A stretch of 64,000 nt of DNA. Origin: a virus. The stretch spans positions 1-64,000 of IMG/VR virus record IMGVR_UViG_3300042463_001065, one strand, 5' to 3'. Of the stretch, positions 3,378 to 13,324 are shown in pieces (position 1 is the first letter of the stretch; the number at the start of each line of letters is the position of its first letter). The position numbers were made by a program, and so were the translations under genes. The notes below the pieces were generated by a model. It ran no database searches and had not been told where the DNA came from. It worked only from the letters and a program-made list of their open reading frames with translations.

Positions 3378-3984
3378 GACAATAAAAAAATTCATCACAA
3401 AAGATGAAGTAAACCAAATAGTAAATTGGATCGATTCTGTTAATCACAATGGTAATGATAGTAACCATCACCTTACAGAATTGTCTAAAACACTTAATGG
3501 TAAATCTTATATGTTTGATATTTCTAAAACACCTTTAACAAATTACATTACAAAATTTCAATCAATATCTGACGTTTCAAACGATATCTTACCTGAATTT
3601 ATTCACAATATAATTGATAGAATATCTGAGGAGTTTAACTTTCCAAAAGACAATATTTTCCTACAATCGGTTGATATGAATAAAGGTGGAAAAATAAATC
3701 CCCATTATGATGCATCAATTGATGGTTATATTAATTACAAATGTAACATAAGTGTATTATCAGAAGACTATAATTTTTTTATTGATAAAGAATCAATCAA
3801 CATAGAAGAAACCGATTTATACGGATTTGAAGCATCACTATATAAACATTGGACAAATGAATTTAATTCAAGAAGGGTATTTTTGAGTTTTGGTTTTATT
3901 TTACCTTATGAGATTTTAAATAGAACTGAAAATGATCCAAGAGTTAGATTAAGTAAAAGAATTGCGAAATACTTTCAACAATAA
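3355..3984 (+). CDS. 2-oxoglutarate/Fe(II)-dependent oxygenase (P4H-like)
   Basis: 209 residues. The iron-binding facial triad of the 2OG-Fe(II) dioxygenase superfamily is visible: H117-Y-D119 in the stretch NPHYDAS, a distal His at H165 in YKHWTNEF, and an Arg (R173 or R174) nine residues on in RRVFLSFGF, which usually binds the 2-oxoglutarate carboxylate. Such enzymes hydroxylate proteins or nucleic acids; phage members of this prolyl-4-hydroxylase-like group are often found beside tail or fibre genes. The substrate here is unknown. The start is the only Met before residue 53 and overlaps the upstream gene by 23 bases. Placement between fibre-region genes is consistent with modification of a virion protein, but that is inference. 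Confidence 0.72.
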   Translation: MENTETYKTIKKFITKDEVNQIVNWIDSVNHNGNDSNHHLTELSKTLNGKSYMFDISKTPLTNYITKFQSISDVSNDILPEFIHNIIDRISEEFNFPKDNIFLQSVDMNKGGKINPHYDASIDGYINYKCNISVLSEDYNFFIDKESINIEETDLYGFEASLYKHWTNEFNSRRVFLSFGFILPYEILNRTENDPRVRLSKRIAKYFQQ

Positions 3985-3986
3985 AA

Positions 3987-3994
3987 TATTTATT
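3987..3994 (+). promoter_or_regulatory. TATTTATT box before the gene at 4031
   Basis: Exact TATTTATT, 36 bases before the start codon, followed by an A-rich leader. One of the recurrent boxes described in the findings; late promoter is a hypothesis. Confidence 0.4.
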
Positions 3995-4030
3995 AAATAA
4001 AACAAAATAAAAACTATAAAAAAACATTAA

Positions 4031-4882
4031 ATGGCAAGTGCACCAATTAAATACGTAACAAATCAATACCCATTCAAAACCTATAAGGCGTTGTTAACAC
4101 AAACACCTCCGTTGAGTGGTACAGAAATCTTAGATTTTGACAATAAATTAATTATTGGAGAATCGTATGAGATAATTAATTATGCGGGGGGATATGTTGA
4201 TAATGGTAACATGACTAATGATGGAACAAATTATCCTGATGGTGTTACTACTTATACCACAACAGGAGGTAACGGTTCAGGTTTACAATTAGATGTAGAA
4301 TTTTCATCAGGAGTAGTGGTTAACGTAAGTGTTAGTAGTTCAGGCTCAGATTATTTAGTTGATGATGAAGTTACGCTGGTTGGTGGAGATGATAACGCAA
4401 CTTATCAAATAACAAGTGTACTCGGAGATGATTTTTCAAATATTGCTGATGTTACAAGCGGTACTATAAATCAAAACGGTTGTATTTTTATTGCAACAGG
4501 ATTCATCCCTACCGAATGGACAAATGGTACTGAATTAAATTCATCTGGAGATTTTGTTGTTACAGAATTAGAAAACACATTAGGGTTTAATGTAGGTTGG
4601 TCTGAACCAATTCCTGGTGTGTATTTTGCACAAAACGATGAGGGACCTTCTGAAAATTCATTTCCTAGAGAATCAACCCAAACTTATATAAATCAAAATG
4701 GTGGGTTAAGTGTGATAAACCCAAATTTACTTTTTCAATCACAAGTTGTAACAGACACAGAAATTGACGACTCCGTTCTTCTTACTGTTTTTGATTTCGG
4801 ACCTGGCGATTATGTTTCAGAAGAATTATACTACACACCAGTAGAAATAAACGTTTTATATACATTACCATTACCATCATGA
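4031..4882 (+). CDS. Putative fibre/appendage protein sharing a module with the first gene
   Basis: 283 residues, Gly/Thr/Asn-rich, no enzymatic motifs. It contains the same module seen in the truncated fibre gene at the window start: ESYEIINY followed later by DDFSNIADV, NGCIFIATG and PTEW. Here the module is split by an insert of about 80 residues (roughly bases 4187-4423) rich in Gly and Thr that looks like a separate small beta domain. The C-terminus ends in hydrophobic beta-like sequence. The start is preceded by a long A-rich run, and the stop overlaps the next start (ATGA). Likely a virion appendage component; the binding target is unknown. Confidence 0.6.
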   Translation: MASAPIKYVTNQYPFKTYKALLTQTPPLSGTEILDFDNKLIIGESYEIINYAGGYVDNGNMTNDGTNYPDGVTTYTTTGGNGSGLQLDVEFSSGVVVNVSVSSSGSDYLVDDEVTLVGGDDNATYQITSVLGDDFSNIADVTSGTINQNGCIFIATGFIPTEWTNGTELNSSGDFVVTELENTLGFNVGWSEPIPGVYFAQNDEGPSENSFPRESTQTYINQNGGLSVINPNLLFQSQVVTDTEIDDSVLLTVFDFGPGDYVSEELYYTPVEINVLYTLPLPS

Positions 4883-5616: not shown

Positions 5617-8517
5617 ATGGTTCCACAAGAAGAAATTGAACGCTTTTTACATGGCGAAGACGACGAGAAATACATTGTCGCAATTGAATACGATTACAAA
5701 TCAGATAAAATATTTAAAGTAATTCAAGACCCAATTAAAGGTAAACTTTTAAGAATGGATACATTTATTCCATTTGCTTGGGTTGGTGACCTTAGAAGTA
5801 AAAACTTTTATAAAGGTAATAAAGACTTTCAAAAAAAGGCGATGTCTGAAAACGGCATTATAATAGAAAAATTAGAAGATCACGGGGATGAAAGATTAAA
5901 GAATGGTTTGACGTTCTTGGTAAAAACAACAAAATCATATTCAAACCTTGTAAACTTTTTTAAAGGTGGTGGTCTTGATCCATGGGGAAGAGATAATTCA
6001 GATTGTATAACAATACTATCACCGGTAGAACAATACCTCATCCAAAAAAGTAAAAGACTATTTAAAGGTTTTGATGAGTATGACGAAATCCACAGGTTTG
6101 TATTTGATATTGAGACCACAGGTTTAGATCCCAAGACAAGTAAAATGTTCTTGATTGGAATGAAAGACAATCGTGGTTTTCTAAAATTATTATCGGCACA
6201 AAATGAAGATGAAGAAAGACAAATGATTATTGAGTTTTTCAAAACAATTGACGAATTAAAACCTTCTCTTATTGGTGGTTACAACTCAGCCTTCTTTGAC
6301 TTCCCGTTTATTTTAAAACGGGCCGAAATATTAAATCTAAACATTAAAAAAATATCCAAAACTTTAAATCCCGATTATTCATTAAAACAAAAAGACGGAA
6401 TTTTAAAATTGGCAAATGAGATGGAACCTTATGTTCAGACTCAAATGTGGGGTTATAACATTGTGGACATTGCACATGCAGTTCGTAGAGCACAAGCGAT
6501 TAACTCAGATATTAAAAGTTGGTCATTGAAATACATTACCAAGTTTATTGAGGCAGAAAAAGAAAATCGTGTTTATGTTGAGGGTGATAAAATTGGTAAA
6601 ATATATTTTGACAATGAAGACTATTGGATGAATATAGAAAATGGTAATTATAAAAAAGTAGGTATTAATGAAAAAATAGATGAGGTTTGTTCAAGAAGAA
6701 CTGATGTCTATAAACTAACATCAGGTTCAAAAATTATTGAAGACTACCTTGACGATGACCTTTATGAAACGATGGTTGTTGACGAACAGTTCAACCAAGC
6801 AAACTTCTTACTTTCTAAACTGGTACCAACAACTTATGAAAGACTTTCAACAATGGGTACCGCAACATTATGGAAAATGATTATGTGTGCATGGTCATAT
6901 AAAAACAATTTGGCTTTACCTAAGAAAAAAGAGAAAAGAAAGTTTACGGGTGGACTTTCAAGGTTAGTTCAGGTTGGTTATTCAAGAAAGGTATTAAAAC
7001 TTGACTACTCATCACTATACCCCTCTATTCAGTTAGTTCACGACGTATTCCCCACTTGTGATGTAACAGGAGCGATGAAGAGTATGTTAAAGTACTTTAG
7101 AGATACTCGTATAAAATATAAAAACTTAGCAAGTGAATTTAAAAAAACGGATCCGAAACTTTCTGTCTCATACGACAGAAAACAGTTACCAATCAAAATC
7201 TTTATCAACGCATTCTTTGGATCACTATCTGCACCACACGTATTCCCGTGGGGTGACATCGACATGGGAGAACAAATTACGTGTACCGGTAGACAGTACC
7301 TTAGACAGATGATTATGTATTTTATGAAACGGGGTTACGTTCCTTTGGTAATGGATACCGATGGTGTAAACTTTGAAACTCCTGTTGATAGAGAAAATTA
7401 TACATATGTGGGTAAAGGCCTTAACGGATTAGTGAATGAGGGTGAGGTTTATGTTGGTGCAGAGGCCGATGTTGCAGAATACAATGACTTATTTATGAGA
7501 AATGAAATGGGTCTTGATATTGATGGTGTATGGCCAGCAACAATTAACGTGGCTCGTAAAAACTACGCACTTCTTACAGATAAGGGTAAAGTTAAACTTA
7601 CAGGTAACTCAATTAAATCTAAAAAACTTCAAACATACGTTGCTGAATTTTTGGATAAAGGTCTTAGAATGTTACTTGATGGTAAGGGTGGTGAGTTTTT
7701 AGATTTCTATTATGAGTACGTAAGTAAAATTTATAATAGAGAAATACCATTGGCGAAGATTGCAAACAAGTCTCGTGTTAAACAATCAATAGATGATTAT
7801 AAAGTACATATTACAAAAACAACAAAGGCGGGAAGTTTAATGTCGAGACAGGCACATATGGAACTTTTAATGAACGCAGGAAAAAAACCAGGTTTAGGTG
7901 ACACAATATATTATGTTAATAATGGTGAAAAAAAGTCACATGGTGATGTTCAGAAAAAAACTACAAAAATGACTAAAAAACAAATAGAGGATTATACAAA
8001 AATTCATGGATCAATACCACCTGAAATGTTATCTAAAAGTGAGGTTATTTTAAATTGTTATTTAATTGATGAAAAGGAAATTGAAAATAACCCCGACTTA
8101 TTAGGTGAGTACAACGTTCCAAGATATTTGGCGGCGTTTAATAAAAGAATTGAACCATTACTTGTTGTTTATAGTCCTGATATTAGAAAAGACATTTTAA
8201 TTGAGGATCCAAAAGACCAACCAATTTTTACCAAATCACAAACTGAATTAGGTAGAGGTTACCCAATGAAAGAAAAAGATCAAGATAATTTAGATGAGGT
8301 TTTAACATTATCTGATATGGAAATATCATTTTGGCAATCAACAGGTATTAACCCTTATTATATGTATATTGACGACACAATTAATTTAGTTAATACTGAT
8401 TATGTTAATAGTAATATGGAGTTAATGAAAACTAGAGTGTCTAAAAGTAAGGTTGATGATGAGGAGATATATGAATTTGATGAAGACGGGGATTTAATGT
8501 CTTTAGTTTTTGACTAA
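5617..8517 (+). CDS. Family B DNA polymerase with 3'-5' exonuclease
   Basis: 966 residues, close to the usual size of T4-type replicative polymerases (about 900). The proofreading domain shows Exo I as DIETTGLD (D164, E166) and Exo II as GGYNSAFFDFP (N223, D228). The polymerase domain shows motif A as DYSSLYPS near residue 462, motif B around INAFFGS, and motif C as MDTDG near residue 579, where most family members have DTDS. The N-terminal 100 residues and the Lys-rich region after residue 760 are less recognisable. It copies the phage genome with the helicase, SSB and exonuclease encoded at 37-44 kb. It sits among structural genes, away from those partners, and ends tail-to-tail with a minus-strand gene, overlapping by 4 bases. 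Confidence 0.95.
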   Translation: MVPQEEIERFLHGEDDEKYIVAIEYDYKSDKIFKVIQDPIKGKLLRMDTFIPFAWVGDLRSKNFYKGNKDFQKKAMSENGIIIEKLEDHGDERLKNGLTFLVKTTKSYSNLVNFFKGGGLDPWGRDNSDCITILSPVEQYLIQKSKRLFKGFDEYDEIHRFVFDIETTGLDPKTSKMFLIGMKDNRGFLKLLSAQNEDEERQMIIEFFKTIDELKPSLIGGYNSAFFDFPFILKRAEILNLNIKKISKTLNPDYSLKQKDGILKLANEMEPYVQTQMWGYNIVDIAHAVRRAQAINSDIKSWSLKYITKFIEAEKENRVYVEGDKIGKIYFDNEDYWMNIENGNYKKVGINEKIDEVCSRRTDVYKLTSGSKIIEDYLDDDLYETMVVDEQFNQANFLLSKLVPTTYERLSTMGTATLWKMIMCAWSYKNNLALPKKKEKRKFTGGLSRLVQVGYSRKVLKLDYSSLYPSIQLVHDVFPTCDVTGAMKSMLKYFRDTRIKYKNLASEFKKTDPKLSVSYDRKQLPIKIFINAFFGSLSAPHVFPWGDIDMGEQITCTGRQYLRQMIMYFMKRGYVPLVMDTDGVNFETPVDRENYTYVGKGLNGLVNEGEVYVGAEADVAEYNDLFMRNEMGLDIDGVWPATINVARKNYALLTDKGKVKLTGNSIKSKKLQTYVAEFLDKGLRMLLDGKGGEFLDFYYEYVSKIYNREIPLAKIANKSRVKQSIDDYKVHITKTTKAGSLMSRQAHMELLMNAGKKPGLGDTIYYVNNGEKKSHGDVQKKTTKMTKKQIEDYTKIHGSIPPEMLSKSEVILNCYLIDEKEIENNPDLLGEYNVPRYLAAFNKRIEPLLVVYSPDIRKDILIEDPKDQPIFTKSQTELGRGYPMKEKDQDNLDEVLTLSDMEISFWQSTGINPYYMYIDDTINLVNTDYVNSNMELMKTRVSKSKVDDEEIYEFDEDGDLMSLVFD

Positions 8518-8846
8518 GACCCCTTTAGTCCGTCAGAAGAGAGTATGTACCAACCACCATTAACGTATTTAAATTCAACACAAGAACCTTTACCTAATTC
8601 AATCTCGTTAAATTCATCGTCTATTAATTTACTTGATTTTACTAACGTATTTGTCAATGACTTTATAACTACATGGTCACTTGTGTTTTCATTTAATATA
8701 ACAACACAATCTTGAATCCCTTTTGTAATTATTACGTACTCCCCATTTACTTCGTATGATGGGTTTGAGACTATTGCAGAATCTGAAGTTTCAATTAAAT
8801 TACCATTGATTATTCTTTGTGATGATACGGATCTAAAAACTGCCAT
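8514..8846 (-). CDS. Small putative virion protein
   Basis: 110 residues, first minus-strand gene of a four-gene block and convergent with the DNA polymerase (ends overlap by 4 bases). The sequence is mostly beta: VNGEYVIITKGIQDCVVIL, then GSCVEFKYVNGGWYILSS. A pattern of regular strands ending in a Trp-Tyr strand is common in tail-tip and fibre-tip modules of phages. No catalytic residues. It lies 6 bases from the upstream neck-like gene, so it is probably co-transcribed with it. Confidence 0.55.
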   Translation of the reverse strand: MAVFRSVSSQRIINGNLIETSDSAIVSNPSYEVNGEYVIITKGIQDCVVILNENTSDHVVIKSLTNTLVKSSKLIDDEFNEIELGKGSCVEFKYVNGGWYILSSDGLKGS

Positions 8847-8852
8847 AAAAAA

Positions 8853-9971
8853 TTATATAACATTATATGGGCTTGTAAATGGTCTATATTTTAACGCTTT
8901 ATTCATATTTTCAGCCATAGCTCCTTTTATCTCCCATTGTTTTTCAGGTCTAAGTCTTTCTAATCTAGTTTTAAGTTCTTCCCACAAAATAGTTTTTTCG
9001 TCTTTAGCTTCAGTGTTTAAACTTTGCCACTCTAAAGTTACTTCACTATCCGGCGTTTTTAAGTTACCACTATACTTACCTCTAACTTTTGCTAAAGTTT
9101 CTTTACAATAAGCAGTAAACCATCTTCTAACCCATGTCTGTGCGGGTGAATTTAATTCATCCCACCTCATTTCATCAATTGGAACATCTGAAGGTAATTT
9201 TACAATATCTGGATTTTTTTTCAAACAATCTTCTCTATCGTTTGTTTCATAATACCAATACCAAACTTTATATTTCTGATACTTTATATTCCCAAAATCA
9301 AATTTACCACCAGGAACATTCATTAAGTGTATCGCCTTTTTACCTTCAGGTAATGCGGTTACTCTATATGTTAATTCCCCTGATATGATTCTTCTTTTCA
9401 TACTTATATCTTGCATTCTTAAAAGAATATCAAATGCTGGTGTTATAAAATAATTTCCTGTTGTCCCCATTTGAGAAAATCCGGCACCACCACCTAAACC
9501 AATACCACCAAATCCACCAAATCCACCCATAAACGGATCAAAATATGCTGCATCCAATTCAGATCTTGTAAACCAAAGTAATTCATTTAATTCTCTTCCT
9601 GCGGGTATTTCATATATTTGTTGGTTTGGAATTAAATCTATATAATCTTTTTTCAAAACATAATCTCCTCCCGCTTGTAATCCAACAATTTTTGAATACG
9701 AATATGTGTATTGTGTTTCCCAATCTAAACTTCTAGTTGTGAACGCTCTTGTCACAGATTGTTCATCCAAGTTTAAACCATATAAAGACGACCACTGAGA
9801 TTCAATCAACCAATCATTTACATGTTGAGCATAATCCTGAATTGATAGTTCCAATAACGAATCCATCATTTCGTCTTCCAACTCTACACTACGTAAAGGT
9901 GCTCCTAAAAGATTTCTAATTCTTTTATAAAGTTTACTTCTGTCCGGTTCGGTGATAATTGCAGTATTCAT
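8853..9971 (-). CDS. Putative neck / head-tail connector protein
   Basis: 372 residues. The N-terminal helical segment (YKRIRNLLGAPLRSVELEDEM, then LLELSIQDYAQHV) resembles the start of neck or head-tail completion proteins of T4-type marine phages, where a short hairpin of helices is followed by a beta region. A Gly/Phe-rich insert, about residues 143-168, interrupts the middle and looks like a disordered loop. The C-terminal third is helical and rich in Arg, Lys and Trp. Assignment is by resemblance and is not certain; a generic structural protein is the fallback. Confidence 0.5.
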   Translation of the reverse strand: MNTAIITEPDRSKLYKRIRNLLGAPLRSVELEDEMMDSLLELSIQDYAQHVNDWLIESQWSSLYGLNLDEQSVTRAFTTRSLDWETQYTYSYSKIVGLQAGGDYVLKKDYIDLIPNQQIYEIPAGRELNELLWFTRSELDAAYFDPFMGGFGGFGGIGLGGGAGFSQMGTTGNYFITPAFDILLRMQDISMKRRIISGELTYRVTALPEGKKAIHLMNVPGGKFDFGNIKYQKYKVWYWYYETNDREDCLKKNPDIVKLPSDVPIDEMRWDELNSPAQTWVRRWFTAYCKETLAKVRGKYSGNLKTPDSEVTLEWQSLNTEAKDEKTILWEELKTRLERLRPEKQWEIKGAMAENMNKALKYRPFTSPYNVI

Positions 9972-9998: not shown

Positions 9999-11084
9999 TC
10001 ACTTAACTTTATTTCTTTCTAATTGCGTTGTGTATTGATCATTAACAAATCCCCAATTCACAACTTTCCAAAAGTTTTTAACGTATTTGTCTCTTTGATT
10101 TTTATATTTTAGATAATATGCGTGTTCCCACACATCTAAACCAAGTAATGGGTACCCTTGTATTTTTTCAGTATTCATTAAAGGATTGTCTTGATTTGAA
10201 GTGGATACAATTTTTAAATTGTTTGTTTTAGTTAAAATTAACCACACCCATCCTGAACCAAATCTTGATTTTGATTCTTCTTCAAACTTTTCTTTAAAAA
10301 TTTCGTAAGAACCAAAAGTTTTTTCTATTTTTGATTTTATTGGGTCTTTAATTTCTTGTTTTTTTGGGGATAACATTTTCCAAAAAAGTGCGTGATTAAA
10401 TGCTCCGCCACCATTGTTTTTTATGACTGTGTTATACTTACTTATTTTTTTAATTATCTGTTCAATATCTAAATCAGGACCTTTAACTTTTTCTAATTCC
10501 ACATTTAATTTTTCAACATATCCTTTGTAATGTTTATTATAGTGGGTTTTCATTGTTTCAGAATCAATGAAAGTTTCTAAATCGTTAAAGTCATATTGTA
10601 ATTTTTCTATGGATATTTTTTTTATTTCTGAAATAATATTTTTTTGTGAAACTAAATCTTCATTTAATTTTAATTCTACCTCTTCAATTTTTTTTAAAAA
10701 TGGTTTATATATTTTTTTTTCATTTTCTTTGTTTTTAGCAAAATATTTTAAAATTTCACCCGACTTAGCGTTAGCCTCATTTTCATTTTTTCCACCAATA
10801 CTCTTACCTCTATCTCTATTAAGTGTGTTTCTTTGGTATTCGTGAATCCATTCATGACCTAAAGTTCTCAACACATCACTAATAATTCTATCCTTAACAA
10901 AAATTTTTAATCTACCTTTATTTGTTCTACTCCCTGTGGTCATAGTTCCCGTTCTTTTTTCTAAAAAATCAATAGTTATTTGATTATCTAATGGATATTT
11001 TTTTTGTAGTTTTTTTATAAAACTGTCAATTATTTCTTTATTAATTTTATTTGTATTTTTTGGATAATTAATTATATTACTCAT
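9999..11084 (-). CDS. HExxH metalloprotease fused to Fe/Mn superoxide dismutase
   Basis: 361 residues in one uninterrupted frame. N-terminal domain (about 1-120): H77-E-W-I-H81 zinc motif and a likely third ligand, E103, in ENEANAKSG, as in small phage HExxH proteins. Residues 121-160 form a charged helical linker. C-terminal domain (about 160-361) is a full superoxide dismutase: HYNKHYKGYV, NGGGAFNHALFW, FGSGWVWL and DVWEHAYYLKYKNQR. All four metal ligands are present (H181, H231, D317, H321). Gly at the residue four before H231 and Gln298 in SNQDNPL favour the Mn-type over the Fe-type arrangement. Expected reaction: superoxide to oxygen and hydrogen peroxide. The protease substrate is unknown. 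It lies between a neck-like gene and a helicase, and a TATTTATA box is 4 bases upstream. Confidence 0.9.
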   Translation of the reverse strand: MSNIINYPKNTNKINKEIIDSFIKKLQKKYPLDNQITIDFLEKRTGTMTTGSRTNKGRLKIFVKDRIISDVLRTLGHEWIHEYQRNTLNRDRGKSIGGKNENEANAKSGEILKYFAKNKENEKKIYKPFLKKIEEVELKLNEDLVSQKNIISEIKKISIEKLQYDFNDLETFIDSETMKTHYNKHYKGYVEKLNVELEKVKGPDLDIEQIIKKISKYNTVIKNNGGGAFNHALFWKMLSPKKQEIKDPIKSKIEKTFGSYEIFKEKFEEESKSRFGSGWVWLILTKTNNLKIVSTSNQDNPLMNTEKIQGYPLLGLDVWEHAYYLKYKNQRDKYVKNFWKVVNWGFVNDQYTTQLERNKVK

Positions 11085-11096: not shown

Positions 11097-12860
11097 TCAC
11101 CTCTTATGAGAAATTAAATTTAACATTTCTTCAATTGTTGATGCGTCTTCCATCATGTTGTCACCCATAACAGTTGATATGATTTTTTTCTTCCTATTGA
11201 GGATGTCATATATCACTCCCTCTATTGTATTTTCAAAAAGAGGATAATATACCGATGTTGAATTTTTTTGACCAATTCTATGTGATCTATCTTCTGCTTG
11301 TGCGTGTTCTGCGGGGACAAAAGATAAATCATTCATGATTACGGCTTCTGCAGATGTTAAAGTAATACCGACACCTGCGGCCTTTAAATTACCAACAAAA
11401 ACTTTTATTTTGTCGTTTTCTTGAAAATCATCCACCGCCTTTTGTCTATGAGGTTTTGAACAAGACCCGTCTAAATAAACTGCTTGTTTTCCAAAATGGT
11501 CATAAATGGTTCGTAAAGTGTCAGTAAAGTTTGTAAATATGATTACTTTTTTACCTTGTTCAATAATGTTTTCAGCCAATTCAATTGTGTTTTTAACTTT
11601 TTCTTCGGCAATTACCTTTCTTACTTTCATTAACTTACCAAACTGAATTGTAAGTGATGATGACTCCTCTGAATTATTATCATACCAATTAAAGTATTCA
11701 CCCATTAATTCTTCGTAATCTTTTGATTTTAATCTTAAATAAACAGGAGTAATAATTTTATCTGGTAAATCTAAAACATCTTCTTTTAATCTTCTTAAAA
11801 TGTGAGTTTGTGTTCTTTCTCTTAACTCATCTAAATTAGACGCACCTGTTACATTCCAAACTTTTCTTTTACCTACGCTAAATTGAAAACCATTACAATA
11901 TCTTTTGGCGTATGCCATCCAATTTGCGGCAACAGGACTTTCAACTAAACTCAAAAGATTATAATAATTCATAGGTCTTGAGGTCATCGGTGTTCCCGTT
12001 AATAACCAAACCCTTTCAACGTTACCACATAAATCATTTACTATTTTTGTTCTTTGTGCTTGTGGATTTGAAATCATATGTGCTTCGTCCATTATAACCA
12101 AATCAAAATTAGTGTTTAGAATTATTGATTCATCTTTCTTTTTTGGGTCGTGAAAGTTTTTTAATATGTCGTAATTAATTATAACAAAATCAGATTCAGT
12201 TGAAAACTTCTTACCTTCCGAAATATAAACAGACCTATCTGAATAATTTTCAATTTCACGTTGCCAATTTATCTTTAATGAGGCTGGACAAACAATTAAT
12301 ATTTTTTTTGCTCCCGTCTCTAATGCCGAAATAATTGTTGAGGTTGTTTTACCAAGTCCCATATCATCAGCCAAAATAAACTTTTTGTTTCTAACAAGTT
12401 TTTCAATTGCTTCTTTTTGGTGATCCATCGGAGCCCTGTGATTATATTTAGAATATTCAATAACAACATTCTTTACCTCATTATCTTTTATAAGTGCGGT
12501 TTTTGGAATCCAAAAATCATGTATTGTTTCACCACTAAATATTTTACCCCAAATATGATACGACTTATCTTTTTCAACCAAAAGTTTTTCAACATATATT
12601 TCCGTTGGTTCTTTAGTGTACATTTTATCTTCCATCATTTTTTTTCCAAAATATGAATCAAGTTTGACCCATTTTTTTGCCACCTTTGGTGTTCGTCCGT
12701 GAAAGTTAATTATGTATTCAGCTTGAGATCTTGTGGGGGTAAAAGACTTACTATTTTGTTTTTTGTTTTTTAACGACAAGATATAGTTATTTGACCCAAC
12801 ATAATCATCTAACATTTGAAGGGCCCTTGTTTCAGGCGTTTTTGAAATTAATTCTTCCAT
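11097..12860 (-). CDS. SNF2-family DNA helicase/ATPase
   Basis: 587 residues with the superfamily 2 set in order: motif I ADDMGLGKT (residues 164-172), motif Ia near CPASLKINW, motif II DEAH (258-261), motif III LLTGTPM (286-292), and the C-terminal half with VFVGNLKAAGVGITLTSA and motif VI DRSHRIGQK. This is the SNF2/SMARCAL1-like group, DNA translocases that remodel or anneal DNA junctions, rather than the UvsW type of T4. A likely role is recombination-dependent replication or fork repair alongside UvsX. The N-terminal 140 residues carry a beta-rich region (YHIWGKIFSGETIHDFWIPK) that may contact DNA. It is divergent from the gene at 12959, with a 98-base AT-rich region between that holds two TATTTATW boxes. 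Confidence 0.9.
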   Translation of the reverse strand: MEELISKTPETRALQMLDDYVGSNNYILSLKNKKQNSKSFTPTRSQAEYIINFHGRTPKVAKKWVKLDSYFGKKMMEDKMYTKEPTEIYVEKLLVEKDKSYHIWGKIFSGETIHDFWIPKTALIKDNEVKNVVIEYSKYNHRAPMDHQKEAIEKLVRNKKFILADDMGLGKTTSTIISALETGAKKILIVCPASLKINWQREIENYSDRSVYISEGKKFSTESDFVIINYDILKNFHDPKKKDESIILNTNFDLVIMDEAHMISNPQAQRTKIVNDLCGNVERVWLLTGTPMTSRPMNYYNLLSLVESPVAANWMAYAKRYCNGFQFSVGKRKVWNVTGASNLDELRERTQTHILRRLKEDVLDLPDKIITPVYLRLKSKDYEELMGEYFNWYDNNSEESSSLTIQFGKLMKVRKVIAEEKVKNTIELAENIIEQGKKVIIFTNFTDTLRTIYDHFGKQAVYLDGSCSKPHRQKAVDDFQENDKIKVFVGNLKAAGVGITLTSAEAVIMNDLSFVPAEHAQAEDRSHRIGQKNSTSVYYPLFENTIEGVIYDILNRKKKIISTVMGDNMMEDASTIEEMLNLISHKR

Positions 12861-12958: not shown

Positions 12959-13324
12959 ATGAAAAAAATAATAAGACTTAACGAAAGAGAACTTTCTAGA
13001 CTTGTTAGAAGAGCGATACGTGAACAAGAAGAAAAAGATATGGATGATGAGGATATGGATGATGAGGATATGGATGATGAGGATATGGATGATGAGGATA
13101 TGGATGATGAGGATATAGATGATAATGAAAAAATAGAAAAGGCTCAAGAAACATGTAATGACTTAATTGAAATGTTAGAAGACGTATTAGAAGATTTAAA
13201 AGATATATGTGACTCAGATGATATTCTTGAACTTTTACCGACAAAAGTTGCATCAATAGAAGAACTTTCAGAATCTTTAACTGAATTTATAGACGGAGTT
13301 GAATCAAACGCTATTGGATTATAG
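12959..13324 (+). CDS. Acidic repeat protein with capsid-targeting-like N-terminus
   Basis: 121 residues in three parts. Residues 1-22 are basic and amphipathic (IIRLNERELSRLVRRAIRE) and end at I20-R21-E22, a match to the [LI]-x-E cleavage signal of T4-type prohead proteases. Residues 27-51 are five copies of DMDDE, encoded by a perfect 15-base tandem repeat, giving a very acidic low-complexity tract. The rest is an acidic helical region with two Cys (ETCNDLIEML, DLKDICDS). The N-terminal phrase I-x-L-N-E-x-E-L-x-R-L is related to one in the tiny gene at 18717. It could be a packaged internal protein or scaffold-type protein; no enzymatic function is seen. It is followed by a strong terminator. 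Confidence 0.7.
   Translation: MKKIIRLNERELSRLVRRAIREQEEKDMDDEDMDDEDMDDEDMDDEDMDDEDIDDNEKIEKAQETCNDLIEMLEDVLEDLKDICDSDDILELLPTKVASIEELSESLTEFIDGVESNAIGL
13037..13126 (+). repeat. 15-bp tandem repeat, five perfect copies plus one decayed
   Basis: The unit GATATGGATGATGAG repeats perfectly from 13037 to 13111; a sixth copy (13112-13126) has three changes. It is in frame and encodes DMDDE. Copy number may vary between isolates by slippage. Confidence 0.95.

Follow-up and report, generated by a model that had tools for sequence, protein, structure and literature searches.

A phage gene that appears to join an HExxH metalloprotease domain to a superoxide dismutase (SOD) raises three questions: whether the fusion is real, whether both halves are enzymes, and where in the phage life cycle the product acts. 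The gene, here termed M-SOD, was studied in a 64,000-nucleotide stretch of viral DNA (positions 1 to 64,000 of IMG/VR record IMGVR_UViG_3300042463_001065; 'the window'), which belongs to a 112 kb contig that is itself a fragment. Its features and neighbours are as follows.

5617..8517, plus strand: family B DNA polymerase, convergent neighbour
8514..8846, minus strand: small conserved gene following the neck gene
8853..9971, minus strand: gp13-like neck protein (head-tail adaptor), conserved on the downstream side (PHROG 211, E 1.6e-10)
9999..11084, minus strand: M-SOD, HExxH-SOD fusion gene, 361 aa (open reading frame; SOD matches; at least 583 relatives)
10035..10610, minus strand: Fe/Mn superoxide dismutase, residues 159-350, Mn-type signature (Pfam, MnSOD matches, ligands)
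10611..10730, minus strand: linker, residues 119-158, mostly of low confidence in the model and variable except for [LI]xE
10626..10634, minus strand: I151-S152-E153, candidate [L/I]-x-E site for a prohead protease, directly N-terminal of the SOD (114/114)
10731..11084, minus strand: N-terminal HExxH domain, residues 1-118, predicted gluzincin fold (AlphaFold and Foldseek)
10782..10784, minus strand: E101, likely third zinc ligand, in N100-E101-x-x-A104-N105 (invariant, 114/114)
10842..10856, minus strand: zinc-binding motif H77-E78-W79-I80-H81 (H77, E78 and H81 invariant, 114/114)
11097..12860, minus strand: SNF2/UvsW-like helicase, conserved on the upstream side (adjacent to M-SOD in all loci L001-L080)

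The initial annotation described a 361-residue frame combining an HExxH domain with a complete Fe/Mn SOD, and this description holds. The frame runs from an ATG at 11084 to a stop ending at 9999 with no internal stops, contains both SOD Pfam domains, matches MnSODs, and carries each residue named earlier (H77-E78-W79-I80-H81, H181, H231, Q298, D317, H321). A sequencing or assembly artefact, the error that the annotation had asked to have checked, is ruled out as the origin of the fusion, because 50 of the first 52 distinct members carry it on independent contigs and dN/dS is low in both halves. For the pairs compared, dN/dS is at most 0.33 in either domain and usually below 0.13, synonymous changes far exceeding non-synonymous ones in both halves of most pairs; both halves are under purifying selection. 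Between the window and one relative (L001), dS is 0.02 in the HExxH part, 0.10 in the linker and 0.51 in the SOD part, a mosaic that looks as if a recombination breakpoint lay near the linker.

Scanning IMG/VR with M-SOD yielded at least 583 relatives, and a second scan with a distant member as query at least 600. The HExxH motif, E101 and every SOD ligand are kept in 114 of the 116 distinct family members; since these share descent, motif counts such as 114/114 represent far fewer independent events. SOD forms lacking the HExxH core occur at L060 (ORF 3938-4747) and L062/L063 (ORF 3974-4699); the first shows an apparent in-frame internal deletion and retains the first residues of the HExxH domain.

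The claim that no phage fusion of this kind had been described is supported: no record in the phage collection covers 80% of M-SOD, no cultured phage there carries the fusion, and a literature search found no paper on an HExxH-SOD fusion or on SOD in Far-T4 phages. The Far-T4 paper itself does not mention SOD (PMC4360716). Occurrence of the fusion in cellular genomes was considered and is unsupported. When GTDB species genomes were scanned with patterns based on the SOD part, 11 loci had SOD alone and none had the fusion, and an HExxH profile that matches 9/9 phage controls had zero matches in 296 Bacteroidota genomes.

For the SOD half, Pfam domains Sod_Fe_N (4e-21, residues 159-239) and Sod_Fe_C (6e-40, residues 248-349) both exceed their gathering scores (135.8 bits against 20.9 for one, 75.7 against 27 for the other), and residues 161-353 match solved MnSODs with E around 1e-56. 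The ligands H181, H231, D317 and H321 are invariant wherever the column is present (114/116 distinct members), as are the second-shell residues H185, Y189, Q298 and E320 in the family alignment. Gln298, proposed earlier as a mark of the Mn type, is thus present and invariant, and the equally invariant G227 adds to the Mn-type signature; FeSODs carry Gln at the equivalent position. The SOD half is very likely a working dismutase, probably Mn-using or metal-flexible. It is up to ~47% identical to enterobacterial SOD sequences within the phage collection. In a tree sampled mostly from Bacteroidota, the phage SODs form a single clade (support 100/100) beside Bacteroidota-type SODs. The earlier view that SOD genes are rare in phages is weakened, as they are known from Vibrio phage 2.275.O, PA5oct-type jumbo phages and freshwater phages (PMC6802176).

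The N-terminal half is likely a small zinc peptidase of gluzincin fold, resembling Wss1, SprT and IrrE. Residues 1-118 are modelled with confidence (AlphaFold pLDDT 88, pTM 0.84), and the best Foldseek match in the PDB is yeast Wss1 (5xbv; probability 1.00, E 0.014, TM 0.57); M61 and M4 peptidases rank next, along with IrrE (3dti), a weaker match. Thermolysin-type gluzincins carry the third-ligand motif NExxSD, with which N-E-x-x-A-N was compared; alignment and predicted fold give M-SOD the two features that define a gluzincin, HExxH and a Glu ligand further downstream within NExx(S/A)(D/N). That ligand is probably not E103, as first proposed: within N-E-x-E-A-N it is E101 that is invariant (114/114), while position 103 varies (105 E, 9 D, 1 V). 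Sequence comparison placed the domain in no established family. The window's HExxH domain has no significant Pfam or PHROG match, its profile has zero matches among PDB sequences, and the window protein does not reach the gathering score of SprT (PF10263) or IrrE (PF06114), the SprT-like score in one relative (L064) being 13.9 bits against 25.6. There are no paralogous HExxH domains elsewhere in the fetched phage loci. In a viral structure library the domain matches IrrE-like and SprT-like phage proteins, and because some matches are far longer proteins annotated as amidoligase, AAA or cytidyltransferase, it may have been paired repeatedly with other enzymes.

Gene order is nearly constant across the family: UvsW-like helicase, M-SOD, gp13-like neck protein. 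Where the contig extends far enough, a small conserved gene follows the gp13-like gene and a family B DNA polymerase approaches from the opposite side. The neck-like neighbour noted initially is confirmed by its match to the PHROG head-tail adaptor Ad2 (1.6e-10); it is found in 77 of loci L001-L080, and the exceptions (L053, L078, L080) are fragments ending near M-SOD. No gp13-like protein was found in cultured phages at 1e-5.

The window's 112 kb contig contains no head genes; four larger relatives encode both Peptidase_S77 and gp23. The gp23 of one relative is closest to those of an uncultured phage, Microcystis phage Mel-JY01, Flavobacterium phage immuto and Rhodothermus phage RM378. These affinities fit the Far-T4 phages, an uncultured group known from lakes (PMC4360716; PMC7198788), so the host probably belongs to Bacteroidota. 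M-SOD is conserved across a large Far-T4-like group of uncultured freshwater and marine phages.

The linker offers a clue to where the protein acts. T4-type prohead proteases cleave at the consensus [L/I]-x-E, in agreement with the T4 sequences compared here, and this motif occupies residues 151-153 in 114/114 members, its middle position x taking seven different residues. Every other [L/I]-x-E column of M-SOD reaches at most 66%, the next two highest also lying within the linker. As a control, conserved [L/I]-x-E columns number three in the helicase and two in the gp13-like protein, with x fixed in all; the flanking helicase, gp13-like and 13362 families have no such column with free x. The least confident stretch of the model (residues 139-154, pLDDT <50) contains the site. 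Linker examples (LINE|IKK, FINE|MKK, IISE|IKK) may be set beside the gp23 N-terminus of the lineage (SHLINE|AAS, or SFLINE|ATS in G002) and that of T4 gp23 (SFLTE|AEI), and the scaffold protein of the lineage has several sites of this type. The prohead proteases of T4, phiKZ and SPN3US all cleave after Glu in a short motif (PMC5694885). Residues 151-153 thus form a candidate cut site for an S77 (gp21-type) prohead protease; alternatively, an amphipathic linker helix could account for the conserved I..E spacing. The HExxH-less variants L060 and L062/L063 retain the site, which therefore does not serve the HExxH domain in cis. This, with the Glu-P1 form suited to S77-type proteases, makes the earlier proposal that the HExxH domain processes the SOD unlikely.

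Sites of the same form recur downstream of the SOD. Among 52 long relatives all have [L/I]-x-E after the SOD and 46 have two or more, where shuffles average 28/52; the next residue is S, N, A, Q or G in 47/52. These sites precede at least three unrelated C-terminal modules, none with a significant match in Pfam, PHROGs or the PDB. One module, in 26 long relatives (alignment A3, L099-L131), has invariant E, D and SCK spaced like those of PD-(D/E)XK nucleases and has no database match. Two further unrelated modules of ~350-390 aa (alignments A4, L064-L080, and A5, L133-L177) belong to no known family, and L078/L174 and L160 have yet other, shorter ones.

Our best explanation, held with slightly less than even confidence, is that an active SOD and its zinc-peptidase partner enter the head as a single precursor, are separated there by the prohead protease and leave with the DNA on ejection. 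M-SOD would be expressed late, along with the genes for head and neck, and would be incorporated into the prohead core like the T4 internal proteins. The phage S77 (gp21-type) protease would then cut the flexible linker after E153, so that the mature head would carry SOD and peptidase as two unlinked proteins, both to be ejected with the DNA. The SOD would clear superoxide around the entering genome ahead of phage gene expression, and the peptidase would target host or DNA-bound proteins. The sequences show the fusion, the conserved catalytic residues, purifying selection, synteny and the linker site, together with an S77 protease and a matching gp23 site in relatives; late expression, packaging, cleavage, ejection, benefit and the enzyme activities we infer. 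An extension, possible though rather doubtful, is that Far-T4 phages pack into the head a modular polyprotein (zinc peptidase, SOD and, in many, one of several unrelated modules) which the prohead protease cuts at [L/I]-x-E linkers, the separate enzymes being ejected with the DNA and shielding the incoming genome from superoxide at once.

Virion location, suggested initially from the neck-like neighbour, is plausible on different grounds: the linker's resemblance to a head-protease cut site hints that the phage carries the SOD inside the particle. T4 can package and eject foreign enzymes by means of a capsid targeting signal, and in its IPIII residues 4 and 7 govern targeting and residues 8 and 10 processing (PMC9026906). 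M-SOD starts MSNIINYPKNTNKINKEI, without the N-terminal Y-x-x-F-[IL]-x-E of T4 IPII and IPIII. This absence counts against packaging; the signal-like stretch of M-SOD is internal, whereas T4 signals are N-terminal. In Synechococcus phage B23 and relatives the HExxH domain stands alone behind the start M-x-YKQFL-x-ES, which resembles the capsid-targeting start of T4 IPII and IPIII (MKTYQEFIAEA).

Some other proteins of these phages have noteworthy starts. One encoded in the window (12959-13324) and three beyond it on the same contig (G000, 74104-74505, 108117-108467 and 111602-112069) are small and share a start peptide, e.g. MKRIIRLTESDLTRIVRRVISEQ, with variants ending IREQ, IQEE or INEM, which resembles a signal shared by head-packaged proteins for targeting or cleavage; in the window protein, tandem DMDDE repeats follow it. 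Flavobacterium phage immuto encodes a cob(I)alamin adenosyltransferase (L201:2632-3633) with a capsid-targeting-like start (FLTENKLTKNAQLLKEG), perhaps another head-delivered enzyme.

The main rival to head-loading is a plain intracellular auxiliary enzyme: the fusion would remain uncut, lower superoxide during infection and never enter the particle, its HExxH domain working beside the SOD, for example in clearing oxidised or DNA-crosslinked proteins as Wss1 and SprT do. We regard this as a real possibility of less than even probability. Other phage SODs (Vibrio 2.275.O, PA5oct-type) are plain standalone enzymes, freshwater phages have been reported with oxidative-stress genes (PMC6802176), and Wss1 is the nearest solved fold to the N-terminal domain; this reading leaves unexplained an invariant [L/I]-x-E whose x varies freely, the post-SOD sites and the match to the gp23 site.

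Two other roles appear improbable. M-SOD adjoins the gp13-like neck gene in a conserved order, as might a structural component bound in the particle, in neck or head, with enzyme folds serving mainly as scaffold, yet a purely structural role would not need the invariant SOD metal ligands and second shell, and L060 and L062/L063 lack HExxH. The structural matches to IrrE (3dti, weak) and to IrrE-like phage proteins would suit a regulator protease of IrrE/ImmA type cleaving a host repressor, the SOD being its redox partner or sensor. This has a similarly small chance of being right: we see no DNA-binding or sensor domain, PF06114 is unmatched, and among solved folds Wss1 is closer than IrrE.

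Phage SODs are usually read as accessory metabolic genes. With its peptidase fusion, fixed site by a neck gene and conservation across a large group, M-SOD resembles a core gene more than transient cargo. Should the linker indeed be cut by the prohead protease, the phage would deliver an antioxidant enzyme along with its genome, and it would become testable whether superoxide at entry holds back infection in sunlit, oxygenated water. Searching for such linkers could help to list further head-delivered enzymes of uncultured T4-like phages. The polyprotein reading, if true, would be a natural multi-enzyme use of a head-delivery route so far exploited artificially in T4.

Several known systems resemble M-SOD in part, and standalone SODs were already known in jumbo phages. 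With SodA-type Mn/Fe SODs (PF00081/PF02777) M-SOD shares both full-length domains, all ligands, Gln298 and Gly227, and differs in that its dismutase sits behind a peptidase domain and a linker. The jumbo-phage SODs (Vibrio phage 2.275.O, Pseudomonas PA5oct/Callisto) are likewise phage-encoded Fe/Mn SODs, but they are only 25-28% identical, standalone, without an HExxH domain and among other neighbours. A 501 aa protein of an uncultured Caudovirales phage (A0A6J5L953), found by fold search, is 60% identical over ~208 aligned columns; the likeness covers the SOD part, and the protein carries only the name 'superoxide dismutase'. Wss1/SprT and IrrE-like zinc peptidases (WLM, PF10263, PF06114) have in common with M-SOD the HExxH, the downstream NExxAN and the general fold, whereas M-SOD has no significant Pfam match to them and no DNA-binding or regulatory extension was seen. 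The gp21-cut T4 proteins IPI-IPIII and Alt have [L/I]-x-E sites as M-SOD does, and M-SOD relatives encode an S77 protease and a matching gp23; the candidate site of M-SOD lies between two folded domains and not at the N-terminus. The T4 capsid-targeting start has its counterpart on the standalone cyanophage HExxH protein.
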